DNA from: Candidatus Woesearchaeota archaeon
GTDB taxonomy: Archaea > Nanobdellota > Nanobdellia > Woesearchaeales > ARS49
Reading direction: 5' to 3'
Length of the DNA: 64,000 nt
Assembly (NCBI GenBank): GCA_030750765.1
Contig: JASMHM010000003.1
Span: 62,001-126,000, forward strand
Shown here: piece by piece, positions 57,333 through 64,000 of the stretch
Layout of the letters: every line of letters begins with the position of its first letter
Position numbering within the stretch: position 1 is the stretch's first letter
Made by a program: the position numbers and the translations under genes
Notes under the pieces: model-generated
What the model was told of the DNA's origin: nothing
Database searches by the model: none
The model's input: only the letters and a program-made list of their open reading frames with translations

Positions 57333-57740
57333 ATGAACTATGCTGACCTATTGAGCAGAGCGCGAGAGAAAATGCCCAAACAAGTGTTTGAGCGTGACCG
57401 CTTTGAAATCCCAAAAGTAAGAGGGCACATGCAGGGAAGCAAAACCATTCTGAGCAACTTTGTCCAGATAGCAAAAGATCTACGAAGAGAACCTGAGCAC
57501 ATGCTTAAGTTCGTTCTTCGCGAACTAGCCAGTCCTGGCGAGATAAAGGGACCAAACGTTGCTATCGGAGCAAAGATTCCTGCGTCGCGCGTTAACGAAA
57601 AGATAAGACAGTATGCCATGGACTTCGTGCTCTGCCCACAATGTGGCAAGCCCGACACAGACCTCCTCAAAGAAGGAGAGTACACGGTTTTGAAATGTTC
57701 AGCTTGCGGTAATAGAAACAACGTTAAATCAAAAATATGA
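57333..57740 (+). CDS. eif2b: Translation initiation factor aIF2-beta
   Basis: 135 residues. The C-terminal zinc ribbon reads CPQCGKPDTDLLKEGE and LKCSACGNRNNV, the central domain ILSNFVQIAKDLRREPEHML and KGPNVAIGAKIPASRVNEKI. It forms aIF2 with alpha and gamma to deliver initiator tRNA. GCTTTATAAAG is 26 bases before the ATG. Coupled by ATGA to DUF424, an association common in archaea. Confidence 0.96.
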   Translation: MNYADLLSRAREKMPKQVFERDRFEIPKVRGHMQGSKTILSNFVQIAKDLRREPEHMLKFVLRELASPGEIKGPNVAIGAKIPASRVNEKIRQYAMDFVLCPQCGKPDTDLLKEGEYTVLKCSACGNRNNVKSKI

Positions 57741-58033
57741 TTGTCAAAGAACATCATAAAGGAGGCAACATCATAGTTGCGGTGTGCGACACAGAACTTC
57801 TTGGTAAAAAATTTGAAGAAAACGGCGTCGTGCTTGATCTCTCCAGTCCATTCTACCAAGGTAAGGAGATGGACGAAGATGAAACTAAGAGTATTCTCAA
57901 AAAAGCAGGAGCGTGCAACCTCGTAGGAAAAGTTATCACACAACTTGCCTTACGAGAAGGCATGATTTCCGAAGAAAACATCTTACACTGTCAAAACATT
58001 CCTTTTGCGCAATCAGTGATAATAAGAGAATAA
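57737..58033 (+). CDS. DUF424 family protein
   Basis: 98 residues. The family core is IIVAVCDTELLGKKFEENGV, then DLSSPFYQGKEMDEDE and CNLVGKVITQLALREGMI. It is regularly next to aIF2-beta in archaea, suggesting a translation-related role. ATGA overlap with the upstream gene. Confidence 0.9.
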   Translation: MIVKEHHKGGNIIVAVCDTELLGKKFEENGVVLDLSSPFYQGKEMDEDETKSILKKAGACNLVGKVITQLALREGMISEENILHCQNIPFAQSVIIRE

Positions 58034-58063
58034 GTTTAAAAGTCGTCCATCCCTCTCAATAGT

Positions 58064-58729
58064 ATGACGGGCGTAGCTTGGGAAAATTTCATCCTACCAT
58101 TTCGGGATTGGTTCCAGTCACGCAAATTTATGGATCTGGGAACCACTTTTGACGAAGGAATATTCTCCCAGACAATGCGGAAGTCCGGATTCGGGATTGT
58201 TACAATTGATCTTGAATACGAAGGCATGTGGATGCCGGAGGGCTTTTCTATTAAAGTAACAGAGACCATCTCAGATTCCCCTGCCGTCATTTTCCAGGCA
58301 GAGACCTCAGACGGCAAACGAACCGCGGTGGATGAAGTACTCCAGGATCTCAAAAATGCACAACGTGAACGGTATGAAGTTCCTAGCGTTGAGCCAGAGA
58401 CAGTAGAGAAAATTGCCGAGGCCTATGGAGATACGCTCCAGAAATACGGATGGGATAGGAGCGCACGTGGCTCGGAGGAAAACACTGCGTTCCAGAGGTT
58501 GCAAAGAAATAAAGGTAGCTGCCTGGTGCGAGCGATAGTGAGCAGGCTAGACAAAGACGGTTACTCGTGGAGTGTTCGTTTGGATCACCAAGAAACAGTA
58601 GAGTCGAGGAGATGTGGTGTGTATGACGAGGGGTCTGCGATACAAGGATCTAGTGTTCTTGAAGACTCAATTCCTGAAGCAATCGGACGCTTTGAAGTTC
58701 CTAAAGAGTTAGCCAAACCAGGCACCTAG
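58064..58729 (+). CDS. Hypothetical protein, 221 aa
   Basis: No family recognised; soluble and charged. TTTAAAAG (about 58035-58042) is 26 bases before the ATG, supporting a leaderless start. The 3' end overlaps the DP2 gene by 21 bases on the other strand. Confidence 0.55.
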   Translation: MTGVAWENFILPFRDWFQSRKFMDLGTTFDEGIFSQTMRKSGFGIVTIDLEYEGMWMPEGFSIKVTETISDSPAVIFQAETSDGKRTAVDEVLQDLKNAQRERYEVPSVEPETVEKIAEAYGDTLQKYGWDRSARGSEENTAFQRLQRNKGSCLVRAIVSRLDKDGYSWSVRLDHQETVESRRCGVYDEGSAIQGSSVLEDSIPEAIGRFEVPKELAKPGT

Positions 58730-61700: not shown

Positions 61701-62119
61701 AGACGCTTCTTGATGTCAATACCCACAATGCCGTCTAGTGGGCTGGACACAACGCCAACAGTAACATACGCGAAGCCGGTTCTGATTCCTATTTCTATGG
61801 CTTCTTTTTTGTCTTTGAATTTGCAGAACTTTTCTTGTGCTACCTCTTCAGCTATTTTGAGCGCCACACGCCAATCGAGGACATCAAATTCTTTTTCAAG
61901 TTCCATGATGCGCTCTTTGACGCCGGCATCGAGAATCTGTGGAGCTGCAACACTGATCAAGCCTTCTACACGCTCTGCCATGTTGGCGGCTAGACGAATT
62001 TCTACCTCTTTGTTAGGATCTATTCCCGAGGCTCGCGCCTTGTTTGCTTGTTCGTTAGCCGCGGCTACCTGTTTGTGGAGGCGGTCGAAGTATTCCGTTA
62101 TTTTTTTACTGCTGGTCAT
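58709..62119 (-). CDS. polC: DNA polymerase D large subunit DP2
   Basis: 1136 residues; catalytic subunit of the archaeal replicative polymerase. The active-site segment CDGDENC has the metal-binding Asp889 and Asp891 (RRDCDGDENCVILL from about 885). Two zinc-finger clusters are visible: CEKCQDRNFLPVCLECGD... and CVSCNKKFRR...CTSCGG near the end. No intein interrupts it. The C-terminus KQTSLGAWFG is a PIP-box-like motif for PCNA. It overlaps DP1 by 14 bases. Confidence 0.97.
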   Translation of the reverse strand: MTSSKKITEYFDRLHKQVAAANEQANKARASGIDPNKEVEIRLAANMAERVEGLISVAAPQILDAGVKERIMELEKEFDVLDWRVALKIAEEVAQEKFCKFKDKKEAIEIGIRTGFAYVTVGVVSSPLDGIVGIDIKKRLDGKEYFCVNFAGPIRNAGGTAAAVCVIITDYVRKVMGYERYDAQPDEIKRAHTEVSDYHERISPRQYFPTEGELHFLVQNLPVEIGADPSETREVSNYKDLPRVPTNFIRSGFCLMMTDCIPLKAPKLWKQLSKWGKDFGLDSWNFLEEYLKLQKKAKAKDEEQLGISPDYTYLKDLVAGRPVLGLPLSSGAFRVRYGRCRTTGLSAQALHPASMYVLNEFIASGTQLKLERPGKAATIGSCSTIEGPIVKLRDGSVMYLQSLEMAQSLSPEVQEILYLGDILCNYGDYVNRAHPLVPAGYCEEWWALEQEKAGAPPLVENVTQALEVSHKYGTPLHPKYCYHWNALTLDQFKQLVEWLPTASFVEEQAILSLPHPAKRALELIGIPHRVIKDKVILEEEHTKSLLSTLDVKEKHAEIMDAIEKSKTPDVFTLVKLISGLNLRDKSGTFVGSRMGRPEKAKMRKMTGSPHVLFPVGEQGGRMRSFQSALTAGNIVADFPYYYCEKCQDRNFLPVCLECGDITVKQYHCQECGYITEPCDHTPSQSTKQTFPLNDLFPKILKSLSLVHYPDLIKGVRGTMNDTHTFEHIAKGVLRAKHDIFVNKDGTTRYDATQLPLTHFTPQEIGTSVEILATLGYTEDIEGKPLTSQEQVVEIFPQDIILPDCAESPDVGSKEVLTRVANFVDDELLHLYKQKRFYNLKSEDGLVGELVIFLAPHTSAGILGRIIGFSNTQSIMAHPYMHSATRRDCDGDENCVILLMDAFLNFSKGYLSSRRGATMDTPLVLTTLLIPSEVDDMVFDMDISWKYPLEFYEATMELKMPWEVEIPQIKSVLFKEEQYEGHGFTHHTDNINHTVRCSAYKLLPTMKDKLQGQMDLADKIRAVNATQVATLVIDKHFMRDAKGNLRQFSTQEFRCVSCNKKFRRPPLKGACTSCGGKLLFTVAQGSVVKYVEPMTSLATKYEVNEYLQETIRLLHRRIEGVFGKDAEKQTSLGAWFG

Positions 62120-63518
62120 GTTTGAAATCGAATAATGTTACCTTTCGGTCATGTAGTCCTAGAACTGGGACCACGCACGGGTCAGGGACGTGCCCCATTT
62201 TTTGCTGGAATTGTGTGCTGGGCTGCCAGCAACTTCCTACAACCATGTTCACCCCTCTGTACGTTTTTACTCTTGATTTGTGTATGTGCCCTGACAAGAA
62301 ATAATCAGGAATTCTTTCTATCACGAGTTCGTCTCGTTGAGGATCGGGAATGTACATTGCGCTGGTGTGTGCGGGTGCGAGGTGTCTGCACTTGAGTAAA
62401 TACTCCATGACTAGTTCTGTTTTGTCAGAGGCCTGCCTTCCTGACTGACGGATACTGTTGACCGTGTCAGCATAGTAGGGATAGCTCATTCCGTGATAGA
62501 GCAATATGCTAAAGCCGGAGAATTCTTCACTTGCGTGTATGTTCAGCCAGGAAGGATTGCTTACCATGATGACGTTTGGGAGATTGTATAACGCTGCGGC
62601 GTGTTCTTTGTCAAGACAGGGCTGTGGCTCGGATAGGCGTACTGAGTCGTGGTTGCCAGCACATATGATGATGGGAATGTGGGAGGGTATGGAAGCGAGT
62701 GCGAGCGCTGCCTCATCGTACATTTGTTTGACACTTGAGTAAGCCACCTCGCTTTCTTGGCCAGGATAGATACCTATTCCTGCCACAACATCTCCTACAA
62801 GAAAAACGTAGCCAACCTTAGATGCTATGCGTCGTTGCTCTTCGCTTCCCCACTTTCCTTGGATCCAAGCAAGGAATCTTTGGAACTCATCGTGCATGAA
62901 TTCCTTTGCGCCCATCTCTGTGTCTGAAAGGACTACGGCGTAGGTTTCGTCAGGACTTTGTTTGACTTGTTGTTGCATAGGTATGTCTGGGAGGAGGACG
63001 GCGCTTGCAAAGATGACGTTATCTCCTGCTCTGCCTACTATACCAATCACTTGGTCTAGCGACAGATCCTTAGCGAGTGTGTAATTTGCGCTGTTTTTGG
63101 TGATGATGACCTTGATAGACTTCCCGCTTCGATCTTCCATCACTAATGAAATATGTTCGTTCTTGGTGATGTACTTGTCCATGATCAATCCTATTATGGA
63201 TACTGAACTTCCAGGTGTCACTCTAGATATGCTGGTGAGTTGTTGGAGTTCTTGTCTTGAGCGTAGAAGTGCTTCCATCTGTTTGAAGCGTACGGTCATG
63301 TGCCCTACAAAATCTTGGACCACTCGTTTCTTGTTGAAGTCTTGGTAGGAAAAAACAACCTCGACGTTGTGTTTTTGGCTTGGTGCAGAGGCGGGAGTTA
63401 TCTCTTCATAGTATTTGTCGATGTTTTTCTCCACGTCATCTAGTATTTGCTTAGTAACAAGAGTGTTCTTGTCCATCAAGGATTCTATTATTTTCTTCTT
63501 TTTCAGGGTTTCATTCAT
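62106..63518 (-). CDS. polB: DNA polymerase D small subunit DP1 with altered phosphoesterase motifs
   Basis: 470 residues. An OB fold (about 100-185) precedes the calcineurin-type phosphoesterase domain, the proofreading exonuclease of PolD. Motif I reads LSDTEMGAKEF: Asp199 is kept but the usual His is Glu201. Motif II reads GDVVAGIGIYPGQE with Ala246 in place of the conserved Asp. GNHD (288-291) and GHIH (410-413, His411 and His413) are intact. ATGA overlap with orc1; coupled to DP2. Confidence 0.95.
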   Translation of the reverse strand: MNETLKKKKIIESLMDKNTLVTKQILDDVEKNIDKYYEEITPASAPSQKHNVEVVFSYQDFNKKRVVQDFVGHMTVRFKQMEALLRSRQELQQLTSISRVTPGSSVSIIGLIMDKYITKNEHISLVMEDRSGKSIKVIITKNSANYTLAKDLSLDQVIGIVGRAGDNVIFASAVLLPDIPMQQQVKQSPDETYAVVLSDTEMGAKEFMHDEFQRFLAWIQGKWGSEEQRRIASKVGYVFLVGDVVAGIGIYPGQESEVAYSSVKQMYDEAALALASIPSHIPIIICAGNHDSVRLSEPQPCLDKEHAAALYNLPNVIMVSNPSWLNIHASEEFSGFSILLYHGMSYPYYADTVNSIRQSGRQASDKTELVMEYLLKCRHLAPAHTSAMYIPDPQRDELVIERIPDYFLSGHIHKSRVKTYRGVNMVVGSCWQPSTQFQQKMGHVPDPCVVPVLGLHDRKVTLFDFKHDQQ

Positions 63519-64000
63519 AGTCCTAATTCTTCAGTTAATGTTGACTGGGCGTTCTCTACTAGGGTTTGGCTGGTGGAAGGAAAGATTTCTCGGGTTCTCC
63601 CAAATCTTCCTTTGCTGATGACTTTAGCATTAATAACTCCTAAAACATCAAACTCTCCTATGATGTCGCTGACCCTTCTTTGGGTTAGTGGTCTAAGTGC
63701 GACTTGCTGACAAACATGTTTGTAGTGTTCGTACACCTCCCCTGTAAAGAGGGCATCATTTCGTTGGTTGCCAAGATCAAATATGGCGTACAATGTTGCT
63801 TGGTAGTGTTTGGGCTGTCCTTTGACAAGCTCTATTACTTTGTCTCGTTCTATGGTATCTTCTGCTTTGTCTATATGTGACATGTTGACCTGGGTTGCGC
63901 CATCTCTTTCTGCGAGTTCTCCTGAGACGCGTAGTAATTCTATTGCGCGTCTTGCGTCTCCATGCTCTCTTGCAGCTATAGCCGCACATTTGGCTATGAC
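63515..64000 (-). CDS. orc1: Orc1/Cdc6 replication initiator, C-terminal part (cut by window edge)
   Basis: The frame runs in from the window edge, with 39 codons before the first in-frame ATG. AREHGDARRAIELLRVSGEL is the sensor-2 and lid segment of the Orc1/Cdc6 AAA+ domain; the C-terminal part (LYAIFDLGNQRNDALFTGEV, RRVSDIIGEFDVLGVINAKV) is the winged helix that binds origin DNA. It leads into DP1 with an ATGA overlap, forming an initiator-polymerase operon. Confidence 0.92.
   Translation of the reverse strand, partial: VIAKCAAIAAREHGDARRAIELLRVSGELAERDGATQVNMSHIDKAEDTIERDKVIELVKGQPKHYQATLYAIFDLGNQRNDALFTGEVYEHYKHVCQQVALRPLTQRRVSDIIGEFDVLGVINAKVISKGRFGRTREIFPSTSQTLVENAQSTLTEELGL

Follow-up and report, generated by a model that had tools for sequence, protein, structure and literature searches.

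DNA polymerase D (PolD) proofreads through a phosphodiesterase site in its small subunit, DP1. In the proofreading exonuclease of Pyrococcus abyssi PolD (PDB 5ihe, 6t8h, 8ppt, some of these entries being of an exonuclease-dead H451 variant), the metal ligands are D360, H362, D404, N450, H497, H560 and H562, and H451 is catalytic (PMC10721889, section 10). According to passages of PMC4996933, iron was found chiefly at one site and zinc at both in the crystals, and magnesium was modelled in the cryo-electron microscopy structure (PMC10721889). The DP1 considered here is encoded in a 64,000-nucleotide stretch from Candidatus Woesearchaeota archaeon (assembly GCA_030750765.1, contig JASMHM010000003.1, positions 62,001 to 126,000), the whole of which is called the window. 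It has Glu in place of His362 and Ala in place of Asp407, differs from the P. abyssi protein at the R499 and E502 positions, and has a shorter N terminus (470 versus 619 residues in all). The protein is a nuclease under selection and, judging from its sequence, probably an active proofreading 3'-5' exonuclease in which the first metal site has been rebuilt.

Inactive relatives of DP1 have been reported. The B subunits of eukaryotic polymerases alpha, delta and epsilon (PDB 3e0j, 4y97, 5vbn) have lost their catalytic residues (PMC4104785), whereas the window DP1 keeps all but one ligand. Among archaea, the Aenigma-, Heimdall- and Nitrososphaera-GB-like groups comprise DP1 homologues off the main DP1 clade, several of which are called inactive in section 20 of PMC7544198; unlike these groups, compared by description only, the window system has an intact DP2 and a single departing ligand. 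On the other hand, two calcineurin-like enzymes that, like the window DP1, have exchanged a metal ligand are described as active. In ADPRibase-Mn, Gln27 occupies the place of the motif I His and, according to a docking model, coordinates metal 1; the Q27H exchange lowers kcat/Km for ADP-ribose 11-fold (PMC4334965). In B. subtilis PhoD, Cys replaces Asp at the iron site, and the family divides into Cys and Asp subfamilies (PMC4223295). These two enzymes differ from the window DP1 in acting on other substrates, in having no DxE motif and in not being polymerase subunits.

The DP1 metal site

Aligned to P. abyssi DP1 (P0186), which provides the reference numbering, the ligands D360, H362, D404, N450, H497, H560 and H562 and the catalytic H451 correspond to D199, E201, D243, N289, H342, H411, H413 and H290 of the window protein. 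Six of the seven ligands are present, as is the catalytic His of GNHD, and the H362 position is taken by Glu201. An earlier note on this DNA had described D-T-E (Glu201) and GDVVAG (Ala246) in a DP1 that retains GNHD and GHIH, and the codons bear this out: GAC-ACA-GAG for D-T-E (62924-62916) and GGA-GAT-GTT-GTG-GCA-GGA for G-D-V-V-A-G (62795-62778). The note had counted both as substituted metal-site residues. This holds for E201, which replaces a true ligand, but not for A246, which replaces D407, three residues past the motif II ligand and outside the seven published ligands. Since the motif II ligand itself (D243, equivalent to D404) is intact, Ala246 was rejected as a lost metal ligand, and alignment with P. 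abyssi DP1 leaves one ligand substituted, not two.

Across the metallophosphoesterase superfamily, the Asp and His of motif I are ligands of the first metal. Since a Tyr that holds this metal in purple acid phosphatase is located three residues past the motif II Asp, position 246 of DP1 probably lies beside site 1 as well. (Kidney bean purple acid phosphatase has Tyr167 named at its first-metal site in PMC2267794.) Glu201, replacing the motif I His, would coordinate the metal with its carboxylate group, and the carboxylate gained at 201 would be balanced by the one lost at 246. The metal preference may have shifted, for example to Mg or Mn, while the exonuclease would stay active, its catalytic histidine and all ligands beyond motif I being unchanged.

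Motif I variants in the Nanoarchaeota

Is the substitution peculiar to this one sequence? The Nanoarchaeota set consisted of 262 sequences, giving 244 distinct cores; P0001, one residue off the window DP1, was left out of position-wise counts, which therefore rest on 243 rows. Motif I is DxH in 190 cores, CxH in 41, DxE in 7 and DxQ in 6. When the ligand positions are read in the order 199-201-243-246-289-290-342-411-413, the commonest strings are DHDDNHHHH (160 cores), CHDDNHHHH (40) and DHDENHHHH (22), followed by DEDANHHHH (6), DQDENHHHH (5), DHDANHHHH (4) and DHDSNHHHH (3), with CHDENHHHH, DQDDNHHHH, DEDSNHHHH and DHDDQHHDH seen once each. All but one of the 244 cores retain D243, N289, H290, H342, H411 and H413, and these 243 include all 54 with a variant motif I. 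Outside the phylum, motif I was DxH in 119/119 DP1s covering it, and position 407 was Asp in 120/120; this sample is Thermococci-weighted: of 969 hits to a single Thermococcus query the top 120 were taken, 77 of which share at least 70% identity with it, and they include two fragments and one sequence, P0233, with Asp for N450.

The variants are concentrated in the window's own family, where a DP1 match was obtained in 21 of the 26 genomes searched, a number that may not exhaust the family. Motif I is CxH in 10 of these, DxH in 7, DxE in 3 and DxQ in 1, so that 14/21 depart from DxH, with one genome (G001) counted by its DxE copy. In the 111 genomes sampled from 60 other Nanoarchaeota families, 107 have DxH and four DxQ, a figure that holds for that sample, taken best match first. 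The contrast of 14/21 with 4/111 is one of raw genome counts, uncorrected for shared ancestry within the family.

D-T-E together with GD[VI]VAG recurs in a Woesearchaeota metagenome-assembled genome (L032), in cluster P0003 and in L004, which comes from a different genus, and D-[IV]-E is found with GDLV[SA]G in P0005 and P0006. The L032 protein is 85% identical to the window DP1 and is the same as L003 of G001. The repetition in other genomes means that the substitution is not a base error. A sequencing, assembly or binning artefact might have been considered, given that the draft genome is in 16 contigs and that the neighbouring bin G001 has two further DP1 copies on short contigs, but D-x-E with A or S at 246 occurs in seven distinct sequences from several assemblies. 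These independent copies refute an artefact, as good as completely; moreover, the window genome has one DP1, with clean codons and a clean reading frame. As for G001, its three DP1 genes comprise L003, with DxE, and the canonical pair L157 and L158 on contigs of about 6.5 kb; the extra copies are likely bin contamination.

A quick tree was made of 126 rows, 123 of the 243 Nanoarchaeota rows plus three from outside, with all DxE and DxQ rows kept and other types thinned at 68% identity; 55 of its 123 inner branches are weak. The window DP1 is placed inside the sampled Nanoarchaeota DP1s. On the best tree motif I needs nine changes, six at position 201 and three at 199, and position 246 (Asp or not) needs 15. 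The DxE rows form two subclades, (window, L003, P0003, L004) and (P0005, P0006), each with a support of 100, and both group with one DxH row (P0017) with a support of 92. As read from these sequences, the Glu substitution is fixed in a lineage and belongs to a wider reworking of motif I that has occurred repeatedly within a single Woesearchaeota family.

The other variants deserve mention in their own right. In the CxH rows (including L007, L010, L015, L017, L018, L020, L022, L026, L028, L075 and P0009) the first ligand has changed from Asp to Cys, with correlated changes, uncorrected for ancestry, among residues 348-368, 409 and 431. Perhaps these DP1s have a thiolate-ligated metal site. The CxH/DxH division resembles that of PhoD into Cys and Asp subfamilies, in which the exchanged residue is at the iron site. 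The DxQ form (L014, L073, L093, L112, L132) is spread over four separate families (f1, f2, f54, f90); these rows resemble the DxQ of ADPRibase-Mn, and four of the five have Glu at the D407 position. In L129 (G340:C8:25800-27350), from another family of the class, GNHD reads GQHD and GHxH reads GDLH, two ligands having changed together, which makes it the sole candidate within the sample for real nuclease erosion. No earlier report of these DP1 variants was found in the portions of the open-access literature covered, subscription papers being mostly outside the search.

Gene identity and neighborhood

The source genome is a 1.14 Mb draft, 98.7% complete, in which DP1 is single-copy. The features of the locus are given in Table 1.

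Table 1. Features in and around the DP1 gene (window positions; ligand residues in window DP1 numbering)
Feature	Position	Strand	Basis or remark
DP1, small (3'-5' exonuclease) subunit of PolD, 470 aa	62106..63518	-	profile and PDB sequence matches
OB-fold region, residues 106-164	63027..63203	-	PF01336, E 0.00065, 20 bits, under cut-off 27
Motif I, D199-T200-E201	62916..62924	-	Asp ligand kept; His ligand (P. abyssi H362) replaced by Glu
Calcineurin-like phosphodiesterase (nuclease) domain, residues 208-414	62277..62897	-	PF00149, E 5.9e-9, 37.1 bits, cut-off 21.5
Motif II, G-D243-V-V-A246-G	62778..62795	-	ligand D243 kept; A246 for non-ligand D407
Motif III, GNHD	62646..62657	-	ligand N289 and catalytic H290 kept
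Motif IV, ligand H342	62493..62495	-	P. abyssi H497
Motif V, GHIH	62280..62291	-	ligands H411 and H413 kept
DP2, polymerase subunit of PolD, 1136 aa	58709..62119	-	PRK04023 and DCDGDE motif
Orc1/Cdc6, C-terminal part (lid and winged helix)	63515..64000	-	gene continues beyond window
DUF424 gene, then 221-residue open reading frame	57737-58729	+	open reading frame without Pfam match (E 0.01)

The best NCBIfam match of the window DP1, to "DNA-directed DNA polymerase II small subunit" (E 1.6e-114, 383.5 bits), does not reach the curated cut-off of 445, and the NCBIfam DP1 models match it below their curated cut-offs. PF04042 and PF00149 are above cut-off and the OB-fold match is below it, in keeping with the DP1 family with its OB fold and phosphodiesterase domain; the OB domain is also in the precomputed domain lists of many relatives, and motif I lies immediately N-terminal of the PF00149 match. 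Compared with six PDB DP1 sequences, the best E value was 7.7e-69. An AlphaFold2 model was made for P0001, which differs from the window DP1 at residue 196 only; it has a mean predicted local distance difference test (pLDDT) score of 92.6, and its top structural matches are P. abyssi DP1. The fold and the five motifs of the calcineurin-like metallophosphoesterase superfamily are all there, motif I in variant form. The partner is present too: DP2 scores 1314.3 bits against NCBIfam PRK04023 (cut-off 1269) and shares its first 14 bases with the end of DP1, and the stop of Orc1/Cdc6 overlaps the DP1 start (ATGA), yielding a gene run cdc6-DP1-DP2. The protein is thus DP1 by descent and partner, though its canonical ligand set is incomplete. 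On the opposite strand, the 3' end of the 221-residue open reading frame beside the DUF424 gene overlaps the 3' end of DP2 by 21 bases.

Activity, loss or change of task

Has the nuclease been lost? Weakened, altered-metal or lost proofreading had all been suggested in the earlier note, in parallel with the inactive eukaryotic B subunits. That parallel fails, since catalytic residues are missing from those subunits and six ligands and the catalytic His are kept here; of the three outcomes, an altered site is favored, and loss appears less likely with the other ligands and H290 intact. The DxE group comprises six tree sequences with a minimum pairwise identity of 54% and a subtree length of 2.44 changes per column. 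Over that span the six non-motif-I residues (D243, N289, H290, H342, H411, H413) underwent no change, where the mean rate predicts about 15 (P about 4e-7 in this simple model, and 0.005 when the share of invariant columns is taken as a plainer measure). The ratio of nonsynonymous to synonymous substitution rates (dN/dS) in the nuclease domain is 0.03, and purifying selection on this domain is strong. (The dN/dS comparison with L004 was dropped, its synonymous sites being saturated.)

If the substitution did inactivate or strongly weaken the exonuclease, PolD would be without proofreading, fidelity would be left to PolB and NucS, and DP1 would be structural, like the eukaryotic B subunits. This is less likely than continued activity, although several points weigh on its side and against an active enzyme. 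A true metal ligand has been replaced, and mutants of LpxH are the main counter-precedent, by analogy: P. aeruginosa LpxH H10N, altered at the equivalent His, lacks metal 1 and fails to capture either product or substrate; in H. influenzae LpxH, alanine mutants, among them one of the same His, are reported to be significantly less active (PMC5016852). The literature searched yielded no metallophosphoesterase with DxE whose activity has been measured, and for mutants of CthPnkp at H189 it gave no useful precedent. Inactive DP1s are reported from the archaeal groups named above, and D407, Asp throughout the outside sample, is lost. The conservation of ligands could, moreover, reflect a structural metal. 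Within the exonuclease channel, where R499 and E502 of P. abyssi contact primer phosphates and the last base (PMC10721889, section 9), the R499 position is M, G or T in the DxE group versus Y or F in most Nanoarchaeota, and the E502 position is P, S or T versus D in most. Balancing of charge between 201 and 246 does not find firm support either: the 201-246 and 246-347 couplings are strong in raw counts, but the former is not significant on independent pairs (three supported pairs) and the latter not significant on the tree, and for this reason both are tentative.

A possible backup is encoded, which also speaks for tolerated loss. The window genome encodes NucS and a PolB with intact exonuclease motifs, the patterns DIE, N...FD and Y...D, which we take to be Exo I, II and III. 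With PolB and NucS present, loss of PolD proofreading might be tolerated. However, 54 of 57 genomes, the window genome among them, encode a PolB exonuclease domain irrespective of whether motif I is DxH or a variant, so that this domain does not explain the motif I change; among the three that lack it, one gave no DP1 match and the other two carry DxH DP1s. NucS occurs in 33 of the 57, again with both kinds of motif I. The idea that backup from PolB or NucS brought about the substitution is therefore not supported, and backup by a second, canonical DP1 was rejected, as there is only one DP1 in the genome.

The changed channel positions might also mean that the nuclease, still active, now has a different task, acting perhaps on some other substrate or end structure, and that the channel was altered along with metal site 1. 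The joint change of positions 246 and 347 in raw counts would fit this as well. It is nevertheless improbable. The DxE group retains P413 and has Y or F at both the Y412 and the F586 position, and it is the triple change of Y412, F586 and R499 that abolishes activity in P. abyssi (PMC10721889, section 12). Arg is found at the R499 position in none of the 243 Nanoarchaeota rows, whatever their motif I type, the 246-347 link fails on the tree, and the gene remains in its run with cdc6 and DP2.

A nuclease that is still active, with an altered site, is thus judged likelier than a lost one from these comparisons, because the other ligands are intact and most sampled members of the window's own family have changed motif I. 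PolD proofreading uses a phosphodiesterase site, and one archaeal family has altered motif I of that site in three ways while keeping the other ligands, in contrast to the outright loss in the eukaryotic B subunits. It may be, though this is put forward tentatively, that this Woesearchaeota family repeatedly retools metal site 1 (DxH to CxH, DxE and DxQ) with site 2 and the catalytic His fixed, and that fidelity in close relatives runs on different metals. With its natural variants, the family provides a way to ask which metal serves PolD proofreading and whether a change of metal can shift fidelity.
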